27,723 bases of DNA from a virus, in the IMG/VR virus record IMGVR_UViG_3300027762_000029, positions 1 through 27,723 of that record, one strand, 5' to 3'. Made by a program: the position numbers and the translations under genes. The notes beneath the pieces are model-generated. The model had not been told where the DNA came from, searched no databases, and saw only the letters and a list, made by a program, of their open reading frames with translations. This document shows, piece after piece, positions 6,264 through 22,205 of the stretch. Every line of letters begins with the position of its first letter. Position 1 is the first letter of the stretch.

Positions 6264-7596
6264 AGTATCATTCCTGATAAATAATACGGACTTCTCAGAC
6301 TATTTGAAGAGGTTTGCCGTGTCTTGGGATCTGTTCGGCGGACCTGGAACTTTAAATGTAGAACTTGGGCCTGTTACTAAACAGAACGAAAACGTTCTGC
6401 TGTATGATTCATGGTCAAAAGAAACCAAATTCCAATTTAAAGTAAACGACATCAGTATGATGTCAGGCTATGTGGACACAATAAATATTAACAGATCCAA
6501 AGGAATGTCCGGGGTTACAATAACCGGCCGAGATCTGTTGGCCATATTGACGGATAATTATGTCATGGTATCTACATCTTATCCACCTCCTGATGTTCAA
6601 CTGGTCAGTGAGTCTGGAGAGATAAAAGTTAGTAATCAATACTACTCGATAAAAAATATTATCAAGGATATTTTGGAAAAAAACTTATCGACAAATACTA
6701 TTCAAGGGATCAGTCCGGCAGGACAGCATATCACCAGAAGTATTGCTGGAGACCTGAGCACGCCTTATATAAATATTTTGTACAATAGCGTTGCAGAAAA
6801 CATTCTCAGGACAGGACCGGGAGTGACCAAGATCAGGGCCAATTATGGCCAGAATTTGTTTGAAGTGATTTCTAATCTGTTGAACCAGAGAGGAATATTC
6901 TTATATGCTTTTCCAGGTGGATCTCCCGATGTTGTATTTGCTTTTGGCCTGGATCCGGATACAATGTCCTCTTATAATACTGCGGGATCAGCAGAAGACA
7001 TGAATGTTGTTAAATTCACGATTAATGATGCAATAAGCAATATAATAGAGGATAGAATGTCCATTGATCTGAAGGAGTTCTATAAACTGGTTCGAGCGGT
7101 TGGACAGGCTGGTCAGGAAGAGGATCTGGTCTCATCAAAGGGTGATATAAATCAGGTAAAAGTTCTTGGTAACAAATCCTCGAGCTTGATTTTAGATGTC
7201 CTTGATGGGGTTGATCTTAACTATGGTAATTCAGTCCCGATAAGCAAGGCCGAGGTACAGCAGGGTTTTAACGGCCAGACCAAGTTCAGGTCGACCGACA
7301 TTCGCAATGTGGATGCTCTTACTTGGACCAAAGCTTCCGAATCCGTACAGGATAACATTCAATTCAGGCAGTATCGTGGCTTATTAAATGTTACAGTAAA
7401 AGTCCCAGGTCTGACAAGCGGAGGAGTTCCTTATTTCATGAATAGGATTTATGGATATGATAACGGTTACATCAATACGAATATGTATTGTTTCGGTTTG
7501 CAGATGGAAGGATCAAAAGATGGTGGTCTGACCACATCCTTAAACTTGTCCTTTCCGTGGAAGAACTTTTTTCAATCGGTGCCTAAATCGATATGA
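6253..7596 (+). CDS. Mu gpP-like baseplate hub protein (gp27/gpD type)
   Basis: This ~447-residue protein has the N-terminal beta strands of the gpP/gp27 hub fold: 'SFLINNTDFSDYLKRFAVSW', then 'GGPGTLNVELG', 'FQFKVNDISMMSGYVDTINI' and 'GVTITGRDLLAILTDNYV' (residues ~1-100). The 'G-x-x-x-x-x-x-GRDL-x-x-L-x-D' segment is diagnostic. The C-terminal part holds 'RSTDIRNVDALTWTKASES' and ends in strand-rich sequence. In Mu, gpP forms the trimeric hub that binds the spike gp45, whose gene follows here with an ATGA overlap. I chose ATG 6253 because GGGGA lies eight bases upstream; ATG 6244, three codons earlier, abuts that purine run. The start lies inside the end of the gpN-like gene. Confidence 0.75.
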   Translation: MSDKVSFLINNTDFSDYLKRFAVSWDLFGGPGTLNVELGPVTKQNENVLLYDSWSKETKFQFKVNDISMMSGYVDTININRSKGMSGVTITGRDLLAILTDNYVMVSTSYPPPDVQLVSESGEIKVSNQYYSIKNIIKDILEKNLSTNTIQGISPAGQHITRSIAGDLSTPYINILYNSVAENILRTGPGVTKIRANYGQNLFEVISNLLNQRGIFLYAFPGGSPDVVFAFGLDPDTMSSYNTAGSAEDMNVVKFTINDAISNIIEDRMSIDLKEFYKLVRAVGQAGQEEDLVSSKGDINQVKVLGNKSSSLILDVLDGVDLNYGNSVPISKAEVQQGFNGQTKFRSTDIRNVDALTWTKASESVQDNIQFRQYRGLLNVTVKVPGLTSGGVPYFMNRIYGYDNGYINTNMYCFGLQMEGSKDGGLTTSLNLSFPWKNFFQSVPKSI

Positions 7597-8541: not shown

Positions 8542-9693
8542 ATGGCATCACCATATTTAATTGATTTTGACACACTGCTGGCCGCAATATTAGCCGATTA
8601 CCAGAACCTGGACCCGTCCCCGGATATTACCAAAGGGTCGCCAGTATTCATTAAAGCCAGCTGTCTGGCATCGGCTATATGGGGTGTATACAGATTTAAT
8701 GACTGGAACTCCAAGCAACAATTTCCGGATAAGGCGGATACTGAATCCCTGAACCACTGGGGCAGCATCTATGGCCTGCCTAGGATTGCAGGAGAGAGCG
8801 ATGCCGCCTATTCTTCGAGGATCATCAGCATTATCCAGCAACCAAGCGCTGGCGGTACCGAAAAAGATTACGAAAACTGGGCCCTTGAAGCCACACCCAG
8901 CCCGGGGATCCCAGCTAATATAGCTGAAGATTTCCTGCCGACCGCTGTTTCATTAGCGAACAACAATATCGCCTTGGATGGCACCGTGAACAGTCTCGGC
9001 TGGGTCCACGACGACCCGATCGAATTTACCTCCACAGGAGCCCTTCCAAGCCCGTTGGCTGAGGGTACCCAGTACTGGGCTATCCGTGAGGACACCACCG
9101 CCATAAGCGTTGCCAGCGCGTCTGGTGGCTCGGCAATCGATATAACAGACCAAGGGACGGGCGTACACCAGGTCTACCACGCCGCCCAAACAGACGACCC
9201 GAATAATTTTTACAACGACGACGTGGCGGTGACCACGCCCAATTCGACACCTATTGCCACCCAGCCTGGGTATGTGACAATAACGCTGGTTCCGAATGAC
9301 GAGGCGATACTGAATCCGGCTGATACCTATCACCCAGCGGTGGCTGCCCTGGAATCGGTTACTACCGCCTATATCGAGGCGCGCAGACCAGTGACATCTG
9401 GAGTAACGGCGATTGGGGTTGAGGATACAACCACCTATGGTATAGCGCTGTCGTGCAGTCCGATCACGGTTACGGTAACAACGATCCAGAACGATATTTT
9501 AACATATGTAAACGGTCTGCGTCCTGGAGCGGTGCTTTACAAGGTTCAACTTGAAGCTATCGCATTGCGCGATGGAGCTCTGAATGCGTCGGTGACGGCA
9601 CCGACAGGGTGGGACGCCAACGGACGGATAATCCCGGATAGTACAACGGCAATAAGAACGGACAGTGTTTCGATTAATGTTTATTCGGAATAA
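8542..9693 (+). CDS. Mu gp47-like baseplate protein (baseplate J) with inserted domain
   Basis: The 383-residue protein carries the baseplate J pattern: 'SPYLIDFDTLLAAILADYQN' at the N-terminus, 'GSPVFIKASCLASAIWGVY' near residue 32, 'ADTESLNHWGSIYGLPR' near residue 65, 'GESDAAYSSRIISIIQQ' near residue 84, and 'GGTEKDYENWALE' near residue 104. Usually a short strand pair giving 'G-x-V-x-V' follows at once, but here about 85 residues (~134-220) intervene. They hold 'DDPIEFTSTGALPSPLAEG' and 'SAIDITDQGTGVHQV', a small beta module common in phage and bacterial surface proteins. The core then resumes with 'PGYVTITLVPNDEA' and the 'RPVTSGVTAIGVEDTT' strand. Mu gp47 forms the wedge that joins the baseplate to the fibres. 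The SD is AGAGGA. Confidence 0.84.
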   Translation: MASPYLIDFDTLLAAILADYQNLDPSPDITKGSPVFIKASCLASAIWGVYRFNDWNSKQQFPDKADTESLNHWGSIYGLPRIAGESDAAYSSRIISIIQQPSAGGTEKDYENWALEATPSPGIPANIAEDFLPTAVSLANNNIALDGTVNSLGWVHDDPIEFTSTGALPSPLAEGTQYWAIREDTTAISVASASGGSAIDITDQGTGVHQVYHAAQTDDPNNFYNDDVAVTTPNSTPIATQPGYVTITLVPNDEAILNPADTYHPAVAALESVTTAYIEARRPVTSGVTAIGVEDTTTYGIALSCSPITVTVTTIQNDILTYVNGLRPGAVLYKVQLEAIALRDGALNASVTAPTGWDANGRIIPDSTTAIRTDSVSINVYSE

Positions 9694-10220: not shown

Positions 10221-10225
10221 GGAAA

Positions 10226-10237
10226 TGTACATGTACA
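10226..10237. other. 12-base perfect palindrome at the start of the HNH gene
   Basis: TGTACATGTACA is self-complementary and spans both candidate ATG codons of the HNH gene. It could be chance, an insertion scar or a self-binding site that controls the nuclease; the sequence alone cannot separate these. Confidence 0.45.
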
Positions 10238-10971
10238 ATCATAATTTTATAAACTTATCTAACCAAGTATTTGGTTATTGGAAAGTATTGAAAAAAGACA
10301 AAACAGATAAGTATGGCAATATAGCGTGGATTTGCCAGTGTAAATGTGGTGTGGTGCGGTCTGTACTTTCTAAATCTTTAAGACAAGGTGTTAGCACATC
10401 TTGTGGGAAATGTGGGAAAGATAGAGATGATTTATTTGATAAAAAAATAAACAATTTTAAAGTTTTAAACTTTGAGGGAATAAACAATAAACATCATGGT
10501 GCTATGTGGAAAATAAAATGTTTGTTGTGTGGAAAAGAGGTAATACGAAGTCAGAGTAATATACGAAATCTAAAAAGTTGTGGGTGTATTAGAAAACTAC
10601 CTTATGGGGAATCAGCTTTTAATAGCCTATACGGACAATATAAAAGAGCTGCCACTAAAAGAAATTTAAAATTTGAATTAAATGAAAAAACTTTTAGGCT
10701 CTTAACTAAAAAAAATTGTTATTATTGCGACAAACCCCCCACAAATGTTTCTAAGGGGCATCGACGGAATAAGAATGGATATGTTTCTGAATATGTATAT
10801 AACGGTATCGATCGAGTGAACTCCTCAAAAGGGTATGAAAAAAATAATATTGTTACATGTTGTGGCTCCTGTAATCAAATGAAAATGGATTTATCCTTAA
10901 AAGAATTTAAACAGAACATTTATAAAATTTATAATAATTTAGATTTGAAAAAGGAGTTTACAAATGAGTAG
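10231..10971 (+). CDS. HNH homing endonuclease with two N-terminal zinc-ribbon motifs
   Basis: The protein has two N-terminal Cys clusters, 'CQCKCGVVRSVLSKSL' with 'SCGKCG', and 'IKCLLCGKEV' with 'SCGCI', which are the tandem zinc-ribbon DNA-binding repeats of phage HNH enzymes. The C-terminal nuclease has 'NCYYCDKPP', 'YNGIDRVNSSKGYEKNNIV' and 'CCGSCNQMK'. The first HNH His position reads D-R (GIDRV), a variant I know from other phage HNH enzymes, so activity is not certain. It likely cuts fibre-region DNA in phages lacking the gene. ATG 10231 is preferred over 10225 because AAGGA lies seven bases before it but only one before the other. Base composition is clearly more AT-rich than its neighbours. 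Its last codons contain the SD and start of the next gene (overlap 8 bases). Confidence 0.85.
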   Translation: MYNHNFINLSNQVFGYWKVLKKDKTDKYGNIAWICQCKCGVVRSVLSKSLRQGVSTSCGKCGKDRDDLFDKKINNFKVLNFEGINNKHHGAMWKIKCLLCGKEVIRSQSNIRNLKSCGCIRKLPYGESAFNSLYGQYKRAATKRNLKFELNEKTFRLLTKKNCYYCDKPPTNVSKGHRRNKNGYVSEYVYNGIDRVNSSKGYEKNNIVTCCGSCNQMKMDLSLKEFKQNIYKIYNNLDLKKEFTNE

Positions 10972-11479
10972 TACACATTTTTCTGACGGCCAGCAAGTTA
11001 CCGCGACATTCATGAATACGATTTTTTATAATTCTCATGTCCATGATGGTACGGACGCGGACGGTCACGCATCAAAAATAGATATTACTAGAGACACAAC
11101 TGGAAATATAGCCTCGGATAGAATCGATTGGGTAACTGATGGGTCTTTTATAGCCCAATTTGCAGATTTACAGTATATAGATGTTACCTGCTATTATAAA
11201 ATATTTCCGTCAACATTGTCCGGTATGCCAGAATTTGTACAGCTTTATATCCCCGAAACCGGAGGAACTGTAGGGGAGGAAACCATTATATCATCAACCG
11301 CCATACCAGCGGCAATTCAACCGTCCCCAGGGAAAACTCTTGAGGCATATTTCAAAACCGATGGTACGGAGGAAATGGCTCGTGTAGTGGTGGGCGGGAG
11401 TATAGCTTTCGTCCGTTATGTACCTCCGTGGAAAAATGATACCACAATGTATGAAAATATTTTTACTTATGCGGTATAA
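10964..11479 (+). CDS. Putative tail-associated structural protein (fibre attachment)
   Basis: This 171-residue protein begins 'STHFSDGQQVTATFMNTIFY', followed by 'HVHDGTDADGHASKI' near residue 27. An N-terminal 'F-x-DGQ-x-V-T-A-x-x-x-N' followed by 'H-x-HDG' is frequent in phage tail or fibre proteins that dock on the baseplate; I recognise the pattern but no named family. The rest is beta-rich (FIAQFADLQYIDVTCYY, then 'ARVVVGGSIAFVRYVPPW'). No signal peptide or membrane segment is seen. AAAGGAG lies seven bases before the ATG, inside the end of the HNH gene. It comes immediately before the giant fibre gene, so a fibre-joining or small adhesin role is inferred from position. Confidence 0.5.
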   Translation: MSSTHFSDGQQVTATFMNTIFYNSHVHDGTDADGHASKIDITRDTTGNIASDRIDWVTDGSFIAQFADLQYIDVTCYYKIFPSTLSGMPEFVQLYIPETGGTVGEETIISSTAIPAAIQPSPGKTLEAYFKTDGTEEMARVVVGGSIAFVRYVPPWKNDTTMYENIFTYAV

Positions 11480-11491
11480 AAAAGGAATTCT

Positions 11492-14400
11492 ATGTCATTA
11501 ATAAATCCTATCCATTATACGGTCTACGACCAGAAGGTTCCGAAGGACAGACTGCCCGAAATCAACATTACCTCGGACAGCATGGCCTGGGGAACGATCG
11601 AGATGCAGTTGCCGATCGATGCTTTGGTGTCAACCAGCGCCAAGGTGTGGCAGTTGGCCGTGCCGAGCTATGATCCTTCTCATCTGGATCGGTGGAGCCG
11701 TCTACAACCAGAGATGCTGTCGCTTTATCCAAACATACTCGACCATACATCGGTGCTTTTGGATTCTGGTTATTATAAGTTAAGCTGGCATTTTAATCCT
11801 TCCGACATGACACCGACTGCCGACTCATCAGGTAATTGTCCGTGTTATTCCGTTGAATTTTTTGTCAATGCCGATACATCAGCATCGTCCGATGTTGCAA
11901 CGCCGAAGCTTATCATTCTCATTGAGGATCCGATCGCTTTTACAGGGATTACGGGAATACAGGCAACGACAGGTTCCGTCTTCCAGGGCGAAACAGGTGT
12001 TCAGGGTATAACGGGGATCATCGGATCGACAGGAGTCCAGGGACCGACTGGAATCCAGGGTCACACAGGACTTGGTGTTCAGGGTTATACCGGATTCTAC
12101 GGACAAACGGGAATTCAGGGCGAGACGGGAATTCAGGGCCTGACAGGATTCTATGGACAGACAGGACTTCAGGGAGAAACCGGAATTTATGGTGAAACAG
12201 GAATACAGGGATTAACCGGATTCTATGGACAGACAGGAATCCAAGGAAAAACAGGTTTAGGTTTACAAGGAGAAACAGGACTTCAAGGTGTACCTGGTAT
12301 GACGGGTATTCCCGGTGGAGGGACTGGAGTTCAAGGCCCAACTGGATTTTATGGACAAACAGGAATTCAAGGATTGACTGGTTTTTATGGTCAGACAGGA
12401 ATTCAGGGAGTAACTGGTTTTTATGGACGGACAGGAATACAAGGTCAAACAGGAATACAAGGAACCACAGGGATATCCGGTATAACCGGTTTTTATGGTC
12501 AGACTGGCATTCGTGGAATGACGGGAATAGCAAGCTCCGACAATTATGGAGCAGATTGGGTACCTGTCTGGAAAACAGGTCTACCAGTACTTGGCGGGTA
12601 TGTTTCTGGCCCGCAATCTTTAGCTCTATCCTCCGATGGACGTTATCAATCATTGACACAAGGAATCCCTTACATCGATAGTACATCTACTACCAATGAT
12701 GTGTGGGCAATGTTTAATTCGTCTGACTATGGACAGACTTGGATATTGGATAATACAGATTGGAGTCCGTGTTCAGTTGCCGTGTCAAGTTCCGGAAATT
12801 ATCGTGTTAAAGGCGTGCTCCGATACAATAGTGGTAATATGGGATCAATCTGGACATCCTCTGATTCTGGACAGACTTGGACGGAACGTTTTAATCAAAT
12901 ATTGTATTGGCGACCTCAGTGTTTCATCTCCGATTCTGGACAATATCAAATTGCCACCGGAGGAGGTATATCTACTTTACTGTATGAATCAACAAATTTC
13001 GGCGTAGACTGGTCGGGAAGGGACAGCAGCAGATACTGGTTACGGGCCGCCATGTCATCCGACGCATCATACCAGTTGGCGTCCGTAGCTTCCACAGGAT
13101 ATTTATATAGGTCGATTAACTCAGGAAATGATTGGTCAACCGTATCATCTTCTTTGCAATGGCAGGATGTTGCAGTATCCGGAACAGGACAGTATCAGGT
13201 AGCGACCGCATACAACAACGGAGTTTATACAAGCAGTAATTATGGTCTAACATGGTCGGGACCGAAACCATATCCCACGTCCGAAAACAGAAGAGTTGCG
13301 ATGTCCAAAAGCGGTCAGCATATTACTGTTGCCGACGATAGATATGTCTACAGATCGTCCGATTACGGCGAATCCTTTGTTTATGCCTATGACAGTTCGG
13401 CATCCGTCAGCGGAGTCGCCGAAATAGAAATGTCCGATGGAGGAGGCTTTCAGGTAATTCTTGGCTGGAAGCAGACCTACCCAAGACCGCTCCCAGGATA
13501 TTTTGGAATAATTATTTCTACTTCACAGATTCAAGGCCAGACAGGAATTCAAGGACCTCAAGGCATTCAGGGTACTCAAGGTATAACTGGATTAAAAGGT
13601 CTGACTGGATTCTATGGTCAGACTGGAATTCAGGGAGTAACTGGTTTTTACGGTCGTACCGGAATCCAAGGTACGGGTCAGACAGGACTTCAGGGACAGA
13701 CTGGAATAAAAGGAACTACCGGACTTCAAGGAATTCAAGGAGAAATTGGAAATCTTGGTCAGACAGGTATTGGTGGTCCCACAGGAGTTCAGGGACAGAC
13801 AGGACTTTCCGGTGGAGGAACAACGGGACTTCAGGGTACAACAGGTGTTGGATCACCTACGGGAGTTCAGGGACAGACAGGACTTTACGGTGGAGGAACA
13901 ACAGGTTTGCAAGGACCAACAGGGATTGGATCTCCGACAGGGATTCAGGGACAGACAGGACTTTCCGGTGGAGGAGATACGGGTATTCAAGGTCCAATAG
14001 GACCTGCTGGACAAACCGGATTACAAGGACTTCAAGGACCTGGTGGATCGCAGGGTGTGACGGGCATATTCGGCCTGACAGGCGTTCAGGGAGTAACTGG
14101 ATTTCATGGTCAGACTGGAGTTCAAGGTCTGACAGGGTTTTATGGAAGAACTGGTATCCAGGGCATAACAGGATTCTATGGTCAGACAGGAATTCGTGGC
14201 GTAACTGGTTTTTACGGACAGACTGGAGTACAGGGTCTTACAGGTTTTTATGGGCAGACTGGTGTTCAGGGCATAACTGGTTTCTACGGTCAGACAGGTA
14301 TACAGGGAACGACGGGACCTTCGGGTGGTGGAACGGGTCTTCAGGGACCGACAGGTATTGATGGACAAACGGGAATTCAGGGTCTTACCGGACAAACTGG

Positions 14401-16087
14401 AATTCAGGGTGTAACCGGTTTCTATGGTCGTACTGGAATTCAGGGCTTGACTGGTTTCTATGGACAGACAGGAATTCGTGGCACGACAGGAATACAAGGA
14501 ACCACTGGCTTGGTCGGAATAACCGGTCTGCAGGCTTATACTTATTACGAGATAAAACGCAATTCCGATGCCGATACAACAACCGTATTGGATTCGTATC
14601 TCGAAGATGGAGGAGGGCCGTATTATCCGTCAAATCGCGGAATATCCAATTCAATTTTAGTTGGTCCTGGAATATGGGCTGGGTATACATCATACCGCAC
14701 AGGGATGATAAAATTTAATGATATACCAGACATCCCTATAATAGACGCTAAAATATCTGCTTATCTTATCGGCACACAATTACAACAAGGAGTTGATTCT
14801 TCCGTCATTGTATATCGTTGCTTGTCGGAATGGAAATCTGACGAAACAGATGCCGAAGGAACATTCGGACCGACATGGGATAATCGGGAATACGAAACAA
14901 CAACAGCATGGGACAAAACTGGATGTTCGAGCTTGGATGTCGATATAGATTCAACTCCAATGTGTGTCGCCCATGTACAGATGAATGCCAATGATACAAA
15001 TCCTGGGTATAGGGATTTTCCTTTTACTGATTACGGCGTTTCTTGTATTAAAAGTATGATGTCAGGATCATTGCCTAATTATGGCTTTGCTCTCAAAGAT
15101 ACATCAACAAATAATTATTATGTTTTTTACTCGAGCAATGTAACTGACCCTGCAAAAAGACCAAAGCTTGTACTTAACTATGCTACTCAAGGACCATCTG
15201 GTTCCACTGGTATCCAAGGTGAAACAGGAGTGCAGGGAGTAACTGGTCTTGTCGGACAAACTGGAATCCAAGGTATTCAGGGAGAGATCGGAAATCTCGG
15301 CTACACTGGAATCCAAGGTGAAACTGGACTAATTGGATCTACTGGCTCGGAAGGACAGACAGGAATCCAGGGATATACAGGACTTGCTTTTGGTGCGACT
15401 GGGCTTCAGGGAAATACTGGATTGGTTGGAGAAACAGGTATTCAGGGCGTGACTGGTTTTTACGGTCAAACAGGAATTCAGGGTTTTACAGGTTTCTACG
15501 GCCAGACAGGAGTCCAAGGCCTGACAGGATTCTACGGCCAAACAGGATTGCAGGGTTTAACAGGATTCTATGGAGACACCGGAGTCCAGGGTCTGACAGG
15601 ATTCTATGGACAAACGGGAGTACAAGGACCTCAGGGATCTGGTGGATCACAAGGAGTGACTGGATTCTATGGTCGCACCGGTATTCAGGGACAAACAGGA
15701 ATTCAGGGTGAAACTGGTTTACAAGGGAATACGGGTCTGCAAGGACAAACTGGTATCGTCAGCTTTTCGACATATGGCGGTGCGACTGGAATTATTGGCG
15801 ATGTCGTATTGCCTTATCGCGTTTACTTTGGAGACTGGGCGGTTACAATGGATTCATCAGGCACAATCGACTGTAATATTTATAATACACCATATGCAAC
15901 GCATAATACAGCACCATATCTGATGGGCGTGACTGGCATAGGCATATATGTTGCAGGTGTCAAGGCACAAGGCACTAACTACTGGGGTGGTGTGACAGGT
16001 GCTGCTGGCAATGTCGTGCGTGTCGATGTTAAGGGCACGACAGTGCAGAAGTCAGCAAGTTTACATTTAGGATATTACAGGTGGTAG
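11492..16087 (+). CDS. Giant collagen-like tail fibre with Asp-box and DNRLRE-like domains
   Basis: The 1531-residue protein is built in modules. Residues 1-150 form a beta-rich N-domain, presumably for attachment. Residues ~150-346, ~680-1013 and ~1232-1426 are Gly-X-Y repeats (about 22 G-F-Y triplets in all). Residues ~347-675 hold about six or seven Asp-box motifs (SSDYGQTW, SSDSGQTW, SINSGNDW, SSNYGLTW), implying a beta propeller of the sialidase/Vps10 type, with no identifiable sialidase active site. Residues ~1015-1232 resemble a DNRLRE/CBM96 domain: 'MIKFNDIPDIPIIDAKISAY', then 'YRCLSEWKSDET' and a final 'RPKLVLNY' strand. A 105-residue C-terminal domain ends in 'SASLHLGYYRW', probably the distal head or trimerisation unit. 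SD AAAGGA precedes the ATG. Host binding is inferred, not shown. Confidence 0.85.
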   Translation: MSLINPIHYTVYDQKVPKDRLPEINITSDSMAWGTIEMQLPIDALVSTSAKVWQLAVPSYDPSHLDRWSRLQPEMLSLYPNILDHTSVLLDSGYYKLSWHFNPSDMTPTADSSGNCPCYSVEFFVNADTSASSDVATPKLIILIEDPIAFTGITGIQATTGSVFQGETGVQGITGIIGSTGVQGPTGIQGHTGLGVQGYTGFYGQTGIQGETGIQGLTGFYGQTGLQGETGIYGETGIQGLTGFYGQTGIQGKTGLGLQGETGLQGVPGMTGIPGGGTGVQGPTGFYGQTGIQGLTGFYGQTGIQGVTGFYGRTGIQGQTGIQGTTGISGITGFYGQTGIRGMTGIASSDNYGADWVPVWKTGLPVLGGYVSGPQSLALSSDGRYQSLTQGIPYIDSTSTTNDVWAMFNSSDYGQTWILDNTDWSPCSVAVSSSGNYRVKGVLRYNSGNMGSIWTSSDSGQTWTERFNQILYWRPQCFISDSGQYQIATGGGISTLLYESTNFGVDWSGRDSSRYWLRAAMSSDASYQLASVASTGYLYRSINSGNDWSTVSSSLQWQDVAVSGTGQYQVATAYNNGVYTSSNYGLTWSGPKPYPTSENRRVAMSKSGQHITVADDRYVYRSSDYGESFVYAYDSSASVSGVAEIEMSDGGGFQVILGWKQTYPRPLPGYFGIIISTSQIQGQTGIQGPQGIQGTQGITGLKGLTGFYGQTGIQGVTGFYGRTGIQGTGQTGLQGQTGIKGTTGLQGIQGEIGNLGQTGIGGPTGVQGQTGLSGGGTTGLQGTTGVGSPTGVQGQTGLYGGGTTGLQGPTGIGSPTGIQGQTGLSGGGDTGIQGPIGPAGQTGLQGLQGPGGSQGVTGIFGLTGVQGVTGFHGQTGVQGLTGFYGRTGIQGITGFYGQTGIRGVTGFYGQTGVQGLTGFYGQTGVQGITGFYGQTGIQGTTGPSGGGTGLQGPTGIDGQTGIQGLTGQTGIQGVTGFYGRTGIQGLTGFYGQTGIRGTTGIQGTTGLVGITGLQAYTYYEIKRNSDADTTTVLDSYLEDGGGPYYPSNRGISNSILVGPGIWAGYTSYRTGMIKFNDIPDIPIIDAKISAYLIGTQLQQGVDSSVIVYRCLSEWKSDETDAEGTFGPTWDNREYETTTAWDKTGCSSLDVDIDSTPMCVAHVQMNANDTNPGYRDFPFTDYGVSCIKSMMSGSLPNYGFALKDTSTNNYYVFYSSNVTDPAKRPKLVLNYATQGPSGSTGIQGETGVQGVTGLVGQTGIQGIQGEIGNLGYTGIQGETGLIGSTGSEGQTGIQGYTGLAFGATGLQGNTGLVGETGIQGVTGFYGQTGIQGFTGFYGQTGVQGLTGFYGQTGLQGLTGFYGDTGVQGLTGFYGQTGVQGPQGSGGSQGVTGFYGRTGIQGQTGIQGETGLQGNTGLQGQTGIVSFSTYGGATGIIGDVVLPYRVYFGDWAVTMDSSGTIDCNIYNTPYATHNTAPYLMGVTGIGIYVAGVKAQGTNYWGGVTGAAGNVVRVDVKGTTVQKSASLHLGYYRW
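11941..12530 (+). repeat. Collagen-like repeat block 1 of the giant fibre gene
   Basis: Coding repeats of Gly-X-Y, mostly in 36-base units encoding G-[VLI]-T, G-F-Y, G-Q-T, G-I-Q. Seven G-F-Y triplets occur. The block ends in 'GIRGMTGIASSDNYG', where the Asp-box domain begins. Confidence 0.85.
13531..14530 (+). repeat. Collagen-like repeat block 2 of the giant fibre gene
   Basis: Gly-X-Y repeats between the Asp-box and DNRLRE-like domains, with nine G-F-Y triplets and one G-F-H. It starts with more classical G-P-Q/G-I-Q triplets and contains small breaks, such as 'GIQGTGQTG' near 13663-13690. Confidence 0.85.
13784..13995 (+). repeat. Three tandem 78-base direct repeats (26 residues each)
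   Basis: Units begin at 13784, 13862 and 13940; the third is partial. Each encodes 'GVQGQTGLSGGGTTGLQG' followed by T/P-T-G-[VI]-G-S-P-T. Each unit contains a G-G-G plus T-T that breaks the strict Gly-every-third rule, so these are probably hinges. Confidence 0.85.
15187..15768 (+). repeat. Collagen-like repeat block 3 of the giant fibre gene
   Basis: Gly-X-Y repeats between the DNRLRE-like domain and the C-terminal domain, with six G-F-Y triplets. One unit has G-D-T in place of G-Q-T. Confidence 0.83.
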
Positions 16088-16091
16088 GCGT

Positions 16092-17252
16092 ATGGCTATA
16101 GGTTATTTAGGAATGGCTCAGAAAGCTGACGGCTCGTTATGGGCTTGGGGCGATAACTCTGCTGGACAACTAGGGACAGGTAATACCACTAGTTATTCAT
16201 CACCAGTAGCTGTTATAGGTGGTCATGTTTTTCATAAATTCAGTTTCGGGGCACTTTCCACTGCATTAAACACAGCTTATGCTGCAGGATTAAAAGCCGA
16301 TGGTTCTGTGTGGACTTGGGGGAGCAATACCTACGGTCAATTAGGAAATAATACACGCACAAATTCTTCATCTCCTGTAGCTGTTGTCGGCAATCATTCA
16401 TTTGTAGATATTCGTTGTGGTGGTGGAAGTTATATGATTGCCCTTAAAGCGGACGGCTCTATTTGGTCTTGGGGCAACAATACCGCTGGACAACTGGGAA
16501 CTAACAATACTACCAGTTATTCATCACCAGTCGCGGTTGTTGGTAATCATTCGTTTGTTCAGATTTCCGCTTGCACTACCGCGTCAGGATTAAAAGAGGA
16601 TGGATCTGTCTGGATTTGGGGAGATGGGAATTACGGATCATTGGGAAATAACACAACTGCCAGCGTATCATCTCCGGTAGCTGTCATTGGTGGTCATGTT
16701 TTTACTGGCTTGTTTTCAGGTTTTTATTATAATGGAGGTATTAAATCCACGGGTGCAGTCTGGATGTGGGGTATTAACTCTTTCGGTCGACTTGGAGATA
16801 ATAGTACAACAACCAGATCATCTCCAGTAGCAGTTGTAGGCAGTCATGCTTTTGGTGAAGTTGATATCAGTTCTCAGGGTTCACTTGCCAGAAAGATTGT
16901 TGGAGATACGTGGGCTTGGGGGCAGAATACATACGGGCAGGTAGGAAATAATACTTCTGGCACCAGTTATTCATCTCCAGTGGCTGTAGTTGGAGGCCAC
17001 CTGTTTGTACAGACGGGAAACTCTTACTGGGCTTCTTATGGATTAAAATCTGACGGGTCTTTATGGGCATGGGGAAGAAACGATTATGGACAACTTGGAA
17101 CGAACAACAGAACATCATACTCATCGCCAGTTGCGGTTGTCGGTAATCATGCTTTTATAAATTTGTGGGGAGGAGCGGTAGTTCCTGGGCCCACAGAAGA
17201 TTTTGTAAAAGGTAGTTTTGTCACGACCTGGTGGGGTGGAGATTTTCAATAA
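16092..17252 (+). CDS. RCC1-like seven-repeat beta-propeller protein
   Basis: The 386-residue protein is almost entirely seven copies of an RCC1-type repeat of about 50 residues. Each reads like 'LKADGSVWTWGSNTYGQLG', then N-x-T-x-x-x-SSPV-A-V-[VI]-G-x-H-x-F. Seven repeats predict one closed seven-bladed propeller. The last 25 residues (after NLWGG, ending 'TTWWGGDFQ') lie outside it. RCC1 propellers bind proteins, nucleic acids or other ligands and have no fixed enzymatic role; the position within the fibre cassette, with the same strand and tight spacing, suggests a virion adhesin head. No signal peptide, membrane segment or attachment domain is seen, so it must dock on another fibre protein. 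GGTGG lies about seven bases before the ATG. Confidence 0.84.
   Translation: MAIGYLGMAQKADGSLWAWGDNSAGQLGTGNTTSYSSPVAVIGGHVFHKFSFGALSTALNTAYAAGLKADGSVWTWGSNTYGQLGNNTRTNSSSPVAVVGNHSFVDIRCGGGSYMIALKADGSIWSWGNNTAGQLGTNNTTSYSSPVAVVGNHSFVQISACTTASGLKEDGSVWIWGDGNYGSLGNNTTASVSSPVAVIGGHVFTGLFSGFYYNGGIKSTGAVWMWGINSFGRLGDNSTTTRSSPVAVVGSHAFGEVDISSQGSLARKIVGDTWAWGQNTYGQVGNNTSGTSYSSPVAVVGGHLFVQTGNSYWASYGLKSDGSLWAWGRNDYGQLGTNNRTSYSSPVAVVGNHAFINLWGGAVVPGPTEDFVKGSFVTTWWGGDFQ
16111..17150 (+). repeat. Seven coding repeats of ~150 bases (RCC1 blades)
   Basis: The SSPVAV coding core recurs near 16197, 16367, 16522, 16669, 16818, 16974 and 17121, a spacing of about 147-170 bases. Copies keep the protein motif but differ at synonymous sites. 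Confidence 0.8.
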
Positions 17253-17268
17253 AGGATAAGGTTTACTT

Positions 17269-19599
17269 ATGGCAATAATAAATGTATATCCAACGGTTCC
17301 GGTTGAACCGATCGATGCCGCTAACGAGCTCTACACCTCGACGCAGATAACGGTACCTGCCGGGCACGCGCACACGCCTGTATCGGCAACGGTCTACCGC
17401 GTGGTGCCTCCATCGAGCTCGGTGGCATATTATTCGGAATATGGTTCCGATTTGTATAGCGTCGGGTGTCTTACATACAGCGTTGCCTGGGCCACCTCTA
17501 CGGTCGGCACCATCACTTGGGAGTTCCTGCCGTCTGCGATACCTCTTTATTCTGTCGAATATGTCGCCGTGACTTTCGATGTTGCCGGAATAAAATTTTC
17601 GACTATTGTTCAGGTTATCGATAATCTCACCAACCACACTGGGCCTAAAGGGTCAACAGGGCTTCAGGGACCAACTGGAGTTCAGGGCCCGACAGGGGTT
17701 CAGGGTGGGACAGGGGTTCAAGGTTCAACCGGTATTCACGGGCAGACAGGAATTCAGGGCGTAACGGGGTTTTACGGCCAAACAGGCATTCAGGGCCATA
17801 CAGGGCTCGGCGTACAGGGTTATACGGGGTTCTACGGTCAGACAGGGCTTCAGGGCCTGACTGGCTTCTACGGTCAGACAGGGATCCAGGGGGTTACGGG
17901 CTTTCAGGGTATTACTGGTTTTTACGGCCAGACAGGCCTCCAGGGGCTCACAGGATTCTATGGCCAGACTGGTATCCGTGGGCATACAGGGCTCGGCGTA
18001 CAGGGCTATACAGGGTTCTACGGGCAAACTGGACTGATCGGTTCAACTGGGATTCAGGGACAGACAGGCATTCAGGGCCAGACAGGAATTCGGGGCGTTA
18101 CTGGACTGGTCGGATCGACTGGGGTTCAGGGTGGAACTGGGATTCAAGGACAGACAGGCGTTCAAGGGGTAACCGGGTTTTACGGACAGACAGGTATTCA
18201 GGGTGTTACTGGATTAGTTGGTGGAACTGGGGTTCAGGGACAGACTGGAGTTCAGGGTCTTACTGGTTTTTATGGTCAGACTGGTATTCAAGGTGTGACT
18301 GGAATTCGGGGACAGACAGGGGTTAGTGGTCAGACAGGAATCGCGGGAATGACAGGGCTTCCAGGTGTGGGACTCACAGGATTGATAGGAAATACCGGAG
18401 TTCAGGGCCAGACAGGAATCGATGGTCGCACAGGAATACAAGGCATAACCGGTTTCTACGGCCAAACTGGAATTCTCGGCCAAACGGGAATTCAGGGACA
18501 GACAGGAATCAGTGGTCTGACAGGATTTTATGGCCAGACAGGGATTCAGGGAATAACTGGTTTCTATGGACAGACAGGGATTCAAGGTGGAACAGGACTT
18601 CAGGGATCGACTGGTATCAGCGGTCTTACTGGGTTTTACGGACAAACAGGAATACAAGGACTGACTGGGTTTTACGGACAAACAGGAATACAAGGTCTTA
18701 CGGGATTGGTTGGAGAAACAGGAGTACAAGGTCTTACGGGATTTCATGGACAAACAGGAATACAGGGTCTTACTGGGTTAATTGGACAAACAGGAATACA
18801 AGGTCTTACGGTAGTAGGAGAAACCGGAATTCAAGGTTTAACTGGTTTTTATGGACAGACAGGAATACAGGGACAGACAGGACTCGGACCTACAGGAGCA
18901 ACAGGAATTCAGGGTGGCACTGGACTTATGGGAGGAGGCGGGACCGGAATCCAGGGAATAACCGGATTTTACGGACAGACGGGTATAGAAGGTCTTGGAA
19001 ATTTTATTGAAACCAATACCTATCCATCCATTGGACAAACTCCTGAATTGATATTTGCAGGTGGTGCTGCTTTTGCCGGTATTACAGGAGCATACGGTAA
19101 ATTAGTACAAATATCTGCGGGCTCTATGCAGGGAGCAAGAGGACAAACAGGAATTCAAGGAACCACAGGACTTCAAGGTTCCACGGGAGAGACGGGACTC
19201 CAAGGCCAGACGGGAATTATTGGTATTCAGGGTGAAACAGGTATTGTTGGAATAACTGGACTTGGATCAAATATTTTCGAATATTGCTGGGATATTATCA
19301 ATCCAGCGGTAGGCGGTATTCGTGGTCCAAAACTTTACACATCACAAACAGCTGTTCGAATAAGTTCATATGTAGCTTCTACAACAAATGTAATATTCAA
19401 TATTGAAGACAGAACATCTGCTCCAAATACGACAGGAACAAATATAATGTCAGTTGATCAGACAGCAACAACAACAGGAATTGATGAAATAACATTGTCA
19501 GGAGCAACATTGCCAGCCAATAGTTGGTTATATCTTGATATATCAGCTGTCAATGGAACACCTGGTGAATTGTCTGTAACCTTAGCAACAACGGTATAA
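17269..19599 (+). CDS. Collagen-like tail fibre protein, 776 residues
   Basis: Residues 1-123 form a beta-rich N-domain (QITVPAGHAHTPVSATVYRV, later 'SVEYVAVTFDVAGIKFSTI') that probably mounts the fibre; I do not recognise its family. Residues ~124-574 are Gly-X-Y repeats with about 15 G-F-Y triplets. A short globular break (residues ~575-623, PSIGQTPELIFAGGAAFAG) is followed by a second short Gly-X-Y stretch and a C-terminal beta domain (residues ~666-776, 'YTSQTAVRISSYVASTTNV') that is a candidate binding head. Collagen-like stalks in phage trimerise as rods. The gene uses G/C-ending codons early in the repeat and A/T-ending codons late. The SD is AAGGATAAGG. Confidence 0.82.
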   Translation: MAIINVYPTVPVEPIDAANELYTSTQITVPAGHAHTPVSATVYRVVPPSSSVAYYSEYGSDLYSVGCLTYSVAWATSTVGTITWEFLPSAIPLYSVEYVAVTFDVAGIKFSTIVQVIDNLTNHTGPKGSTGLQGPTGVQGPTGVQGGTGVQGSTGIHGQTGIQGVTGFYGQTGIQGHTGLGVQGYTGFYGQTGLQGLTGFYGQTGIQGVTGFQGITGFYGQTGLQGLTGFYGQTGIRGHTGLGVQGYTGFYGQTGLIGSTGIQGQTGIQGQTGIRGVTGLVGSTGVQGGTGIQGQTGVQGVTGFYGQTGIQGVTGLVGGTGVQGQTGVQGLTGFYGQTGIQGVTGIRGQTGVSGQTGIAGMTGLPGVGLTGLIGNTGVQGQTGIDGRTGIQGITGFYGQTGILGQTGIQGQTGISGLTGFYGQTGIQGITGFYGQTGIQGGTGLQGSTGISGLTGFYGQTGIQGLTGFYGQTGIQGLTGLVGETGVQGLTGFHGQTGIQGLTGLIGQTGIQGLTVVGETGIQGLTGFYGQTGIQGQTGLGPTGATGIQGGTGLMGGGGTGIQGITGFYGQTGIEGLGNFIETNTYPSIGQTPELIFAGGAAFAGITGAYGKLVQISAGSMQGARGQTGIQGTTGLQGSTGETGLQGQTGIIGIQGETGIVGITGLGSNIFEYCWDIINPAVGGIRGPKLYTSQTAVRISSYVASTTNVIFNIEDRTSAPNTTGTNIMSVDQTATTTGIDEITLSGATLPANSWLYLDISAVNGTPGELSVTLATTV
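17638..18990 (+). repeat. Long collagen-like repeat block of the 776-residue fibre
   Basis: About 150 Gly-X-Y triplets using the same 12-residue unit as the giant fibre. One break occurs at about 18801-18825 ('GLTVVGET'), where a codon is missing relative to 'GLTGLVGET' nearby. Confidence 0.85.
19141..19263 (+). repeat. Short second collagen-like block of the 776-residue fibre
   Basis: Gly-X-Y repeats (GQTGIQGTTGLQGSTG) leading into the C-terminal beta domain. Confidence 0.78.
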
Positions 19600-19601
19600 C
19601 T

Positions 19602-20252
19602 GTGGCAACCGATAGTACAACATACACTGTTCCTGGAACCTGGACTTGGACTTGTCCAGCTGGGATAAATACCGTTCAAATAGAGTGTTGGGGAGCTGGT
19701 GGAAACGGAGGAGATGAACAATCCGGAGGGGGTGGGGGAGCATACTCTAAAAAAAATTCATTCGCTGTTTCAAGAGGTGTTTCTTATTCAGTAGGGGTTT
19801 CAAATACTGCGTGGTCTGGATATACTTGGTTTAATAATATGTCTACTTGTTATGCTCAATCAGGGTATGGTGGTTCGTACCAAGAATCAAATAATAGCAA
19901 AGGTGGATCTGATTGTTTAGGAGATACAACCTACATTGGTGGAAATGGAGCAACGGGATCGGGTCCTGATGGTGGAGGAGCCGGAGGAGGAGCTGGAAGT
20001 TCTGGAAACGGAGGAAACGCTTCTGGAATGACTGGAGGAGCCGGTGGAAATCCTGATGGAGGAGCCGGTGGAAATGGTGGTGATTTTAATTGGTTATTAC
20101 CAACCAATGGGTATGCTCCTGGAGGAGGTGGTGGTGGAAATTATGAATATTATAGCACCACTGTCCCAGGGAAACCAGGACAAGTAAAACTGACATGGAC
20201 TGTCCCAATTAATGTTGTACAAAATGTAATCACTAAAAAAGCGAGCGGGTAA
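19602..20252 (+). CDS. Glycine-rich domain protein, probable tail adhesin
   Basis: The 216-residue protein starts at GTG, two bases after the previous stop, with no good SD, so coupled translation is likely. It opens 'TYTVPGTWTWTCPAGINTVQ', then 'IECWGAGGNGG', 'GGGGGAYSKKN' and 'VSRGVSYSVGVS', the pattern of a glycine-rich beta domain found in many phage and bacterial surface proteins. Residues ~110-185 are clusters of Gly with Ala, Ser and Asn (GGGAGGGAGSSGNGGNASG). Similar Gly-rich runs in the S16 phage gp38 adhesin form a polyglycine-II sandwich whose loops bind the host; that likeness is only compositional here. The final 20 residues (VPINVVQNVITKKASG) are not Gly-rich. It sits among fibre genes, so a small distal adhesin is inferred. 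Confidence 0.7.
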   Translation: MATDSTTYTVPGTWTWTCPAGINTVQIECWGAGGNGGDEQSGGGGGAYSKKNSFAVSRGVSYSVGVSNTAWSGYTWFNNMSTCYAQSGYGGSYQESNNSKGGSDCLGDTTYIGGNGATGSGPDGGGAGGGAGSSGNGGNASGMTGGAGGNPDGGAGGNGGDFNWLLPTNGYAPGGGGGGNYEYYSTTVPGKPGQVKLTWTVPINVVQNVITKKASG

Positions 20253-20257
20253 AAATT

Positions 20258-21511
20258 ATGAACTGGCCAATAACTCCTTTGAACGGCGATACGACGACCA
20301 ACGAATTTGGAACGCAGTTCACCTATGATGATTCCATCGGACCTGGTGCGTGGTTGATCACATCACAAGTGATCACTGGTATCACCGGAATCCAGGGCGG
20401 AACGGGGATTCAAGGTATTGGAATCCAGGGAGAAACTGGAATAAGCATTCTTGGCGAAACTGGGATACAAGGTCTGACTGGAATTCAAGTACAAGGAGAA
20501 ACAGGAATACAGGGATTTACTGGGCTAGCTCTCGGTTCTACAGGATTACAAGGTGTAACTGGATTCTATGGACAGACAGGAATACAGGGAGAGACTGGAT
20601 TCTATGGACAGACAGGACTTCAAGGTTTGGTTGGAGAAACAGGAATACAAGGAGGACTTGGTTTAACAGGTCTTCAGGGTCTGACTGGATTCTGTGGTCA
20701 AACAGGGCTTCAAGGATTAGTCGGAGAAACAGGAATACAAGGACTTGGTTTAACAGGTCTTCAGGGCGTAACAGGATTCTACGGTCAGACAGGGATACAG
20801 GGATTAGTCGGAGAGACGGGAATACAAGGGATTAGTTTAACAGGTCTTCAGGGTCTGACTGGATTTTATGGTCAGACGGGAATACAGGGAAGTTATTGGA
20901 GATCTATACTAGGCACACCATCCAGAAAATCAAATACGCAATTTACAGTTACCGATACAAACAACGCCGGGCACTATGATTTATTATTATCACGCGGAAC
21001 CGTGATAAAATGGGAAGATTCTACAGGGATACGCCAAGCGATGTCCAATACCACAGCGTATGCGGATAATGATGCAACCATCAATATTATTGGTGACTTG
21101 ATGCGGGAATGGGATTTTACTTCTGCGAATTTCTGTTACGCGGTAGAAAAAGCCAGAAACATACAGTTTGGAATACCTGGAGTTGTTGGGGTATTGTCCG
21201 ATGCTGCTGGAAGATTTAATACTCCATATGCAATAAAAACATTTGGAGTAGATTGCTATGTGTCAACTGCCGGAAGTACTGGGATAACCAGTTTTGATAT
21301 ACGATATGGTTCTCCTCTGGCAAGTCTATTTCTAACGAAGCCTTACATTGCGAGCGGAGTAACATCAGGGACAGGGTTCGCATCCGATAATACAGTTTCT
21401 TCAATTGCTGAAAACTCGTCTATGCAGTGTGATGTTCTTCTTTCGAGCCAAACAGCATCCGATGCGTGGCTGACAGTTTTCTTTACACCGGAGAATAATA
21501 AATATTTATGA
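20258..21511 (+). CDS. Short collagen-like tail fibre protein, 417 residues
   Basis: A ~40-residue N-domain (NWPITPLNGDTTTNEFGTQF, then 'GPGAWLITSQVI') leads into Gly-X-Y repeats (residues ~40-211) with four G-F-Y triplets and one G-F-C, where a Cys could cross-link chains. Residues 212-417 are a globular C-terminal domain, starting 'SYWRSILGTPSRKSN', with 'TVIKWEDSTGIRQAMSN' and ending 'SDAWLTVFFTPENN', that I cannot assign to a family; it is the probable binding head. The gene starts six bases after the previous stop with only a weak GAGCGGG upstream. It overlaps the next gene by ATGA. Confidence 0.78.
   Translation: MNWPITPLNGDTTTNEFGTQFTYDDSIGPGAWLITSQVITGITGIQGGTGIQGIGIQGETGISILGETGIQGLTGIQVQGETGIQGFTGLALGSTGLQGVTGFYGQTGIQGETGFYGQTGLQGLVGETGIQGGLGLTGLQGLTGFCGQTGLQGLVGETGIQGLGLTGLQGVTGFYGQTGIQGLVGETGIQGISLTGLQGLTGFYGQTGIQGSYWRSILGTPSRKSNTQFTVTDTNNAGHYDLLLSRGTVIKWEDSTGIRQAMSNTTAYADNDATINIIGDLMREWDFTSANFCYAVEKARNIQFGIPGVVGVLSDAAGRFNTPYAIKTFGVDCYVSTAGSTGITSFDIRYGSPLASLFLTKPYIASGVTSGTGFASDNTVSSIAENSSMQCDVLLSSQTASDAWLTVFFTPENNKYL
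20375..20890 (+). repeat. Collagen-like repeat block of the 417-residue fibre
   Basis: Gly-X-Y repeats, with a recurring variant unit 'GETGIQGLGLTGLQG' that appears three times between 20630 and 20860 and breaks strict triplet phase. Confidence 0.82.
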
Positions 21512-22167
21512 GTTATGGAATGCTAGCTCCACGCATAACAATGGGAGGATATTATCCTCTAAATGGTGATACATCTGTAGCACAAGGGCTTGATATATCC
21601 GGTAATAATAGACATATGGATAATACAAGCCAAGTCAACGCATCTATTGTTGGTAAATATAATCAGGGATTACATTGCGGTTCTGTGTTTCTATATAAAT
21701 TTGCTACGAATTCGGACATGAATATAGCTGATAATATGACTATATCTTTTTGGACAAAAGATATGCAAAACGGATATCCTGTAAATTTAAAACGATCAAC
21801 AAGTCCAAAAACGCTTTATCGATTAATATATTCCAATAGTAATACTCTGACATTTTATAGAAATACCACTACTGTAGTAGTTACATATACTATACCAGCA
21901 ACATGGACACACATTGCAATGACTTATGATGGTACAACATTAAAAGCATTTATAAATGGACTATTAAAAGGACAAACTGATACAAGCGGGGAAGGATCTC
22001 AATCAACTGATTATTTTTCTTTTATGTGCGATTTAGCTTTAACAAACAAAGGAGCGGTTGGTGATTACGATGAATGTATAGTTGATTCAAGAGCGTGGAG
22101 CGAGGCTGAAATAAAAAGATATTATAGTTTGTCGCTTGGTGGTTTTGTTCCAAAAGTCATTAATTAA
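21508..22167 (+). CDS. LamG/ConA-like lectin-fold protein, probable tail adhesin
   Basis: The 219-residue protein fits the LamG (Laminin_G_3) pattern: 'GYYPLNGDTSVAQGLDISGN' near the N-terminus, 'NMTISFWTK' near residue 78, 'WTHIAMTYDGTTLKAFING' near residues 132-150, and the closing 'GDYDECIVDSRAWSEAEIKR'. LamG domains are beta sandwiches that bind glycans or proteins, often with calcium. No enzymatic residues are expected. It is the last gene of the late operon, ATGA-coupled to the short fibre, so it may be a head or cap for that fibre; this is inferred from position. A free-standing structural protein is the alternative. Confidence 0.75.
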   Translation: MSYGMLAPRITMGGYYPLNGDTSVAQGLDISGNNRHMDNTSQVNASIVGKYNQGLHCGSVFLYKFATNSDMNIADNMTISFWTKDMQNGYPVNLKRSTSPKTLYRLIYSNSNTLTFYRNTTTVVVTYTIPATWTHIAMTYDGTTLKAFINGLLKGQTDTSGEGSQSTDYFSFMCDLALTNKGAVGDYDECIVDSRAWSEAEIKRYYSLSLGGFVPKVIN

Positions 22168-22169
22168 AA

Positions 22170-22205
22170 AAAATACTCTGGTCCGATCATCGGATAAGTT
22201 TTTCC
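22170..22205. terminator. Candidate bidirectional terminator between convergent blocks
   Basis: TCCGATCATCGGA (22182-22194) is an inverted repeat around one central C, giving at most a 4-5 base pair stem. On the plus strand it is followed after four bases by TTTTT; on the minus strand an eight-T run lies about ten bases beyond. The stem is short, so termination is only suggested by the convergent position. Confidence 0.35.

Follow-up and report, generated by a model that had tools for sequence, protein, structure and literature searches.

Collagen-like fiber genes, each with a stalkless putative binding module encoded directly downstream, in the tail-fiber locus of a contractile-tailed virus

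We analyzed the tail-fiber locus of a virus fragment, IMG/VR record IMGVR_UViG_3300027762_000029, which was examined over its complete length of 27,723 bp (the window). Between positions 10964 and 22167, seven consecutive genes lie on the + strand, as do all window features located below, separated by gaps of −4 to +16 bp. Their order is p171, A (1531 amino acids [aa]), RCC1 (386 aa), B (776 aa), Gly (216 aa), C (417 aa), and LamG (219 aa). A cassette of this kind had been proposed from the letters of the DNA alone (the sequence-only reading), and the observation was confirmed. Domains were called using Pfam with gathering cut-offs and PHROGs. Of the modules named by the sequence-only reading, the Asp-box, DNRLRE-like (Pfam Disaggr_repeat), RCC1, and LamG domains were matched, with Gly_rich_2 falling just below its cut-off, and these calls bear out that a single tail-fiber locus holds a variety of putative binding modules. 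Other points needed correction. The heads had been placed on collagen-like stalks, whereas stalks occur only in A, B, and C, and RCC1, Gly, and LamG are separate stalkless genes; and three unassigned C-terminal heads were counted rather than two (A aa 1428–1531, B aa 669–776, and C aa 212–417). Three times over, a stalk gene has directly behind it a gene whose globular product lacks a stalk: A-RCC1, B-Gly, and C-LamG.

The last of these pairs recurs in other viruses. Gene C (Pfam Collagen, 2e-17) comprises a short N-terminal domain (C_N, 20258–20371), a collagen-like stalk (20378–20896), and a terminal head (C_C, 20891–21511), here regarded as a putative socket for LamG. The LamG gene (21508–22167) overlaps C by 4 bp and encodes a standalone LamG/ConA-like lectin (Laminin_G_3, 1.8e-12, 48.1 bits against a cut-off of 27.6), a putative swappable tip adhesin. 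Full-length homologs of C_C, 31–35% identical, were present in five IMG/VR records (L068, L069, L070, L071, and L072; L and G numbers are our handles for compared loci and genomes), and a second, wider scan returned the same records. A C_C homolog (32%) was also found in BK063673.1, from a virus assigned to Methanosarcinales; L069 is nearly the same as BK063673 and matches vir525, whose record gives Methanosarcinales as host. In all five records with a full-length homolog, a standalone LamG gene of 210–232 aa lies immediately downstream, scores above the Pfam cut-off, and is the sole Laminin_G_3 match of the record. The gaps were −4 to +11 bp in the four records with a clear start, while in L072 the LamG sits in an overlapping open frame. 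L073, which carries the first C_C domain only, followed by a different second half, had no LamG match. The N-termini of C in the window and of its counterparts in L068, L070, and L072 have no detectable mutual similarity; C_N itself, an anchor type unlike those of A and B, gave a 40% match at an N-terminus in G001 (1e-6) and a 38% match in G003 (0.009). With L068 and L069 forming one clade and L071 and L072 another, these two clades, L070, and the window make about four independent cases. Chance adjacency of C_C and LamG in all of them is very unlikely, because there is one LamG per record of several tens of genes.

We then compared how the two members of the pair change. In the close relatives L068 and L069, the C_C genes share 90% identity and other flanking structural genes 88–100%, against 59% for LamG. 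Synonymous divergence (dS) of LamG reached a near-saturated 1.97, compared with 0.01–0.83 for its neighbors, and its ratio of nonsynonymous to synonymous divergence (dN/dS) was 0.16. On these sequences, the entire LamG gene is therefore read as having been exchanged for a divergent allele, rather than altered by point mutation under selection. Across six C_C-LamG pairs, C_C was 31–90% identical and LamG 20–61%, with LamG always the less conserved of the two.

The structure of C_C was modeled with AlphaFold2 from a six-sequence alignment (predicted local distance difference test [pLDDT] 80; predicted template modeling score 0.78). The model consists of a small beta domain and a C-terminal jelly roll. 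Residues 88–206 of C_C best matched 9rkv, the tip of the long tail fiber of phage 7-7-1 (Z 9.8 over 105 residues, 2.9 Å, 13% identity), and the fiber end of this Agrobacterium phage is described as a triple jelly roll (PMC12796354). As jelly rolls are common and a Z near 8 is middling, the modeled match supports the label of fiber terminal domain rather than a specific function. Comparison of a C_C profile with PDB sequences gave nothing convincing. The terminal domains of the three fibers (A_C, B_C, and C_C) were also compared as a candidate single cap family; no relation was found by profile comparison, though the profiles are shallow and the three may share a fold.

A separate observation concerns the Methanosarcinales-assigned virus, in which a reverse transcriptase gene adjoins a tail protein gene (L058:11026–13476; L069:2026–4476). 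This tail protein is ~62% identical between L068 and L069, and the reverse transcriptase is absent from the L068 stretch. The arrangement is a possible diversity-generating element.

Gene B (Pfam Collagen, 6.7e-63; best PHROG phrog_6320, tail fiber protein) consists of an anchor domain (B_N, 17269–17637), a collagen-like stalk (17641–19266), and a terminal cap domain (B_C, 19273–19599). Within the stalk, a small inserted domain at about 19000–19131 has a look-alike, recognized by eye, inside a G003 stalk. The following gene, Gly (19602–20252), encodes a standalone glycine-rich protein, the putative adhesin partner of B, whose Gly_rich_2 match (7.8e-5) scored 23.2 bits against a cut-off of 24.3. 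One distant B_C homolog, 44% identical, forms the end of a 1196-aa collagen gene of GPT/GPQ type in LR756501, a phage of 735 kb, where a gene for a standalone Gly_rich_2 protein (2.2e-15) comes next. No more B_C-Gly pairs were found: a scan of viral_contigs with B_C returned none, and tblastn with the LR756501 cap returned its own genome alone. A B_C profile likewise found nothing convincing in the PDB. In LR756501, a run of consecutive LamG-type genes also lies directly upstream of the collagen-B_C gene (L067:391–4679).

Gene A (Pfam Collagen, 5e-83; best PHROG phrog_6320, tail fiber protein) is the longest of the three and has a beads-on-string layout, in which a propeller and a DNRLRE domain are set within the stalk and not at the tip. 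Its anchor domain (A_N, aa 1–148, 11492–11935) is followed by a first collagen-like G-X-Y stalk of TGIQG/GFYGQT type (11987–12532), an Asp-box (BNR) beta-propeller (12533–13534), a second stalk (13535–14533), a DNRLRE/CBM96-like bead (14534–15190), a third stalk (15191–15760), and the terminal domain A_C (15773–16087), which has no assigned family and gave no tblastn match in phages. The propeller region (aa 346–690) contains 8 Asp boxes against a shuffle mean of 0.06; its best PDB matches were solved BNR sialidases, at a weak E of 0.005, and a homolog on a collagen stalk occurs in G003 (31% identity). The DNRLRE-like bead matched Pfam Disaggr_repeat at aa 1085–1227 (34.3 bits, cut-off 33.9). 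A_N is 38–40% identical in G002 and G013, or 34–41% when a standalone 143-aa G013 paralog is counted, while the rest of A differs. That paralog (G013 26206–26637; L065:10206–10634) is the A_N anchor domain alone, encoded directly upstream of gpI. The G013 homolog of A is 1920 aa long, with an SGYSG stalk, a homologous DNRLRE bead (E 3e-9), and another two beads judged by eye to resemble C1q/TNF. A_N had no sequence match in the PDB. Profiles of A_N and B_N were homologous (hhalign probability 92%, E 5.8e-7), so fibers A and B probably attach at sites of one kind, judging by sequence, and the C N-terminus differs.

Immediately after A lies RCC1 (16092–17252), a stalkless, standalone beta-propeller and putative adhesin, with PF00415 matched at 1.9e-58 in seven stretches and its tandem repeats above the gathering cut-off. 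We considered whether A and RCC1 are one frame-shifted gene and set this aside, as each has its own stop and start, 4 bp apart. Standalone RCC1 homologs are present in other phages. Tandem standalone RCC1 genes of 370–400 aa were seen in several viral contigs (L015, L013, L022, and L024), and in L013, L016, and L024 such tandems stand immediately after a conserved 122–129 aa protein (MAAPNIV...).

The stalks themselves were then examined, because the sequence-only reading had suggested that heads are exchanged between stalks by recombination at shared repeats. A, B, and C contain 222, 162, and 52 G-X-Y triplets, respectively, with Thr at Y in 40–48% of triplets and Pro at most 2% of residues. 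The longest exact DNA match was 23 bp between A and B against a codon-shuffle null of 22, 26 bp between A and C (null 20.5, P 0.05), and 24 bp between B and C (null 19.6, P 0.1); within-gene repeats alone, at 31–32 bp, exceeded the null. Stalk vocabulary tracks genome rather than gene, with a mean cosine of 0.68 within genomes versus 0.27 between them (permutation P < 1/5000). Orthologs, namely A and a 38% identical head-region protein, carry unrelated stalks in G002 and G013. The clustering by genome and the unrelated stalks of orthologs point to slow stalk homogenization inside a genome, or a shared host constraint, and not to recent swaps among A, B, and C. The proposed exchange thus divides into two parts: movement of heads between carriers was seen in relatives, whereas exchange through repeats shared between stalks had no support in the window. 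Comparison of the locus among relatives showed, instead, whole-gene LamG replacement and terminal heads reused on unrelated N-termini.

Two observations on collagen-like stalks lie outside the cassette. The head-region proteins are encoded at G002 18044–18883 and G013 5790–6302; their N-terminal parts are the ones 38% identical, and their collagen-like tails are of their own genome's stalk type (TGIQG versus SGYSG), making them possible head fibers. G003 (L050:1–18000 and L051:1–17563) is a record of 35.5 kb whose portal, coat, and head-closure proteins are of P22 type; no sheath was detected in it. Since its two ends repeat part of one gene, the record of this P22-like podovirus probably represents a whole genome that is circularly permuted. 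The stalk signature of the contractile-tailed window also occurs in G003, as does an Asp-box propeller carried by a collagen stalk, and the primases of the two are 76% identical. Fiber modules and replication genes thus cross tail types.

The surroundings of the cassette give it its context. On its 5′ side are genes for a tail sheath (phrog_165, 2e-93), tail tube, tape measure, and baseplate hub and wedge proteins, together with Mu Gp37-like and Gp45-like proteins, then baseplate J, a gpI-like wedge protein, and an HNH-like gene; on the 3′ side, a primase-like gene and others run on the opposite strand. The best phage relatives of the sheath are Mu-like sheaths (30–36% identity), and a contractile tail for this virus is well supported. 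No close DNA relative was found among phages, and a search of viral_contigs with the window sheath as a single query found nothing; an alignment-based search from a two-sequence sheath alignment recovered three IMG/VR records that share the tail module, with sheath identities of 53% (G002), 45% (G013), and 41% (G014). G014 carries two consecutive baseplate J-like genes, 36% and 39% identical to the window gpJ (L066:8931–10636). In G013 the cassette is flanked by baseplate J and gpI, and in G002 A comes immediately after baseplate J. The position of A in the window, after gpI, the HNH-like gene, and p171, differs from both.

The first cassette gene, p171 (10964–11479), encodes a putative short fiber or anchor, with neither stalk nor recognized head and no Pfam or PHROG match. 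Relatives were detected by tblastn in L002 and L003 (49% and 30%), and aa 1–47 matched G013 27238–28224 by blastp (53%); this N-terminal stretch of ~47 aa is common to first-fiber genes of other phages, where the C-termini differ. The HNH-like gene (10225–10971) scored 12.4 bits against a Pfam cut-off of 21.4 and has low local GC content. In L003, too, the p171 relative has an HNH-like open reading frame (ORF) close by on its upstream side (8931–9293, E 4e-4), and the gene may possibly be linked to the changed position of the cassette in the window. In the same locus, L003, an IMP dehydrogenase-like ORF (800–2302) seems to be interrupted, immediately ahead of its catalytic SICKTRI motif, by an insertion that resembles an intein (CFVPGTKVLT...VVHN). 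A terminator-like hairpin after LamG (22181–22195) comes from a consensus scan alone; that scan gave 12 sites against 9.3 expected, and promoter and terminator scans, being near expectation, were not relied on.

The best explanation of the locus is that it serves host recognition by a contractile-tailed virus, its products presumably being virion components. We interpret it as encoding bipartite fibers, each made up of a stalk that bears a conserved socket and of a swappable adhesin with its own gene, in the fashion of gp37-gp38 of T2 and S16 and with unrelated modules; we put the probability of this at roughly 60%. Three collagen-like fibers would be anchored through A_N/B_N or C_N and extended by their collagen-like stalks. 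The terminal domain of each would act as a socket, at which the separately made partner would dock as the distal adhesin and contact the receptor, much as gp38 sits on gp37 in phages of T2/S16 type. Specificity would shift mainly by replacement of the partner gene, or alternatively by movement of a socket-plus-partner pair to another stalk. A wider proposal, which we rate at a little under even odds, is that this is a general two-gene tip design, in which socket class matches partner class (C_C with LamG, B_C with Gly-rich), pairs move between unrelated stalks and viruses, such as the methanogen-assigned virus and the 735-kb phage, and the lectin may be swapped alone.

Several points weigh against bipartite fibers. 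The LamG replacement is a single comparison within the L068/L069 clade, not of the window's own strain, and a LamG AlphaFold model made without an alignment reached a pLDDT of 35.5 and was not used. The B-Gly pairing draws on sequences from two genomes, and that of A with RCC1 on position alone: no second A_C-RCC1 case was found, and standalone RCC1 genes elsewhere follow genes that do not encode collagen fibers. In G013, the gene after the A homolog encodes 179 aa with no Pfam match, so either the partner differs there or the pairing rule fails. A stable triple helix in stalks nearly free of Pro is assumed. Finally, C_C-LamG adjacency taken by itself would also fit a fiber-assembly chaperone.

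This last possibility is the main rival. RCC1, Gly, and LamG could be assembly chaperones or caps absent from the mature virion, so that receptor binding would fall to the beads of A, B, and C and to their terminal jelly rolls. Chaperone genes are commonly found after fiber genes, T4 gp38, whose gene has the corresponding position, acts as a chaperone and is released once the fiber is assembled (PMC12892980), and conserved adjacency to one terminal domain would suit a dedicated chaperone. However, folds of the LamG, RCC1, and Gly-rich kinds typically serve in binding, and LamG is the most divergent of its neighbors and apparently replaced as a unit, which would be unexpected for the chaperone of a 90% conserved client. 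We consider the chaperone explanation unlikely. It is quite improbable, in our view, that the three proteins are independent decorations of the virion, on the capsid, the baseplate rim, or other fibers, that are merely co-transcribed. Standalone RCC1 and LamG genes do occur in other phages without an adjoining collagen fiber, and G002 and G013 encode collagen-stalked proteins in their head regions as well, but strict C_C-LamG adjacency on different N-termini and the B_C-Gly pair in two unrelated genomes argue otherwise.

Many phage tail proteins are depolymerases, and some modules here could be enzymes acting on host surface polysaccharide, with the Asp-box propeller as a glycosidase and Disaggr_repeat as part of a depolymerase. 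The weak sialidase matches of the Asp-box repeats and the naming of A's Pfam model for disaggregatase agree with this, yet the sialidase-type matches span the repeat motifs only (~90 aa), the analysis identified no catalytic residues, and none of the cassette proteins matched a catalytic family in Pfam; an enzymatic role is accordingly doubtful. Least credible is reshuffling of heads among the three stalk genes of this genome by homologous recombination at collagen repeats: stalk vocabularies are very alike within a genome, orthologous genes change stalk type together, and synonymous matching between stalk genes is slightly in excess (0.439 versus a shuffle null of 0.401), but A, B, and C share no exact DNA tract clearly above the codon-shuffle null, unlike within-gene repeats, and the exchanges in relatives place conserved heads on different stalks or N-termini or replace LamG as a whole gene.

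Bipartite fibers of the proposed kind have counterparts in known systems. Collagen-like phage fibers, phage proteins with RCC1 and LamG domains, and phages with multiple receptor-binding proteins are already known (PMC7048315, PMC10253068); no description of a jelly-roll-LamG gene pair was found in the literature searched. Like gp37-gp38 of T2, S16, and PP01 (PMC12892980), the pairs have a small separate protein encoded immediately downstream of a fiber gene, the variable partner stands on a conserved fiber end (LamG at 59% and the C_C gene at 90% between L068 and L069), and the partner of B is glycine-rich, as gp38 is. The gp38 adhesin has a polyglycine-II domain; Gly matched no gp38 family in Pfam and, by sequence, no gp38 chain in the PDB, so the cassette would work like gp37-gp38 and is not assigned as a member. 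It differs further in its LamG and RCC1 partners, its collagen-like shafts, and the three pairs in one locus, and the tip location of the partners is presumed. Fiber A resembles eBAP3-type fibers of extracellular contractile injection systems (eCIS), in which a propeller and a collagen shaft are combined and which were called undescribed so far in the phage and virus literature (PMC12923769); common to both are a beta-propeller, a collagen-like shaft, and a globular domain at the C-terminus. Unlike these, the window is a virus record with replication genes, and A has a DNRLRE bead and adjoins separate partner genes.

Other phages share single elements of the design. The baseplate of Staphylococcus aureus phage 80alpha has a collagen-like FibU and a receptor-binding protein with a five-bladed beta-propeller, so that a collagen-like fiber and a propeller likewise occur in one virus (PMC7048315), although there they are separate proteins with Ig-like or coiled-coil N-termini and no LamG or Gly-rich partners. 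The long tail fiber of phage 7-7-1 (9rkv) has the C-terminal jelly roll that is the best structural match of C_C; its shaft is beta-helical rather than collagen-like, and the portion of the report available to us mentions no LamG partner (PMC12796354). Klebsiella phage RaK2, ten of whose tail fiber proteins have been studied, also carries many different tail-fiber proteins in one phage (PMC10253068); the sequence-only reading gave most contractile phages one or two fiber types, but well-studied phages carry many. Those of RaK2 are mostly depolymerase tailspikes, while the window modules are lectin- and propeller-like.

To find what sets the receptor specificity of a tailed virus, one usually looks to the C-terminus of its fiber protein. 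If the pairing rule is true, specificity in these viruses would lie in a small separate gene beside the fiber, often annotated just as "hypothetical" or "LamG," and socket class would predict partner class, giving a genomic handle on the adhesins of uncultured viruses. The locus would also offer a testable case of modular tip exchange, and would extend to viruses the collagen-shaft-plus-propeller fibers reported for eCIS (PMC12923769). Collectively, the evidence from relatives suggests a modular way for viruses to alter what they stick to.

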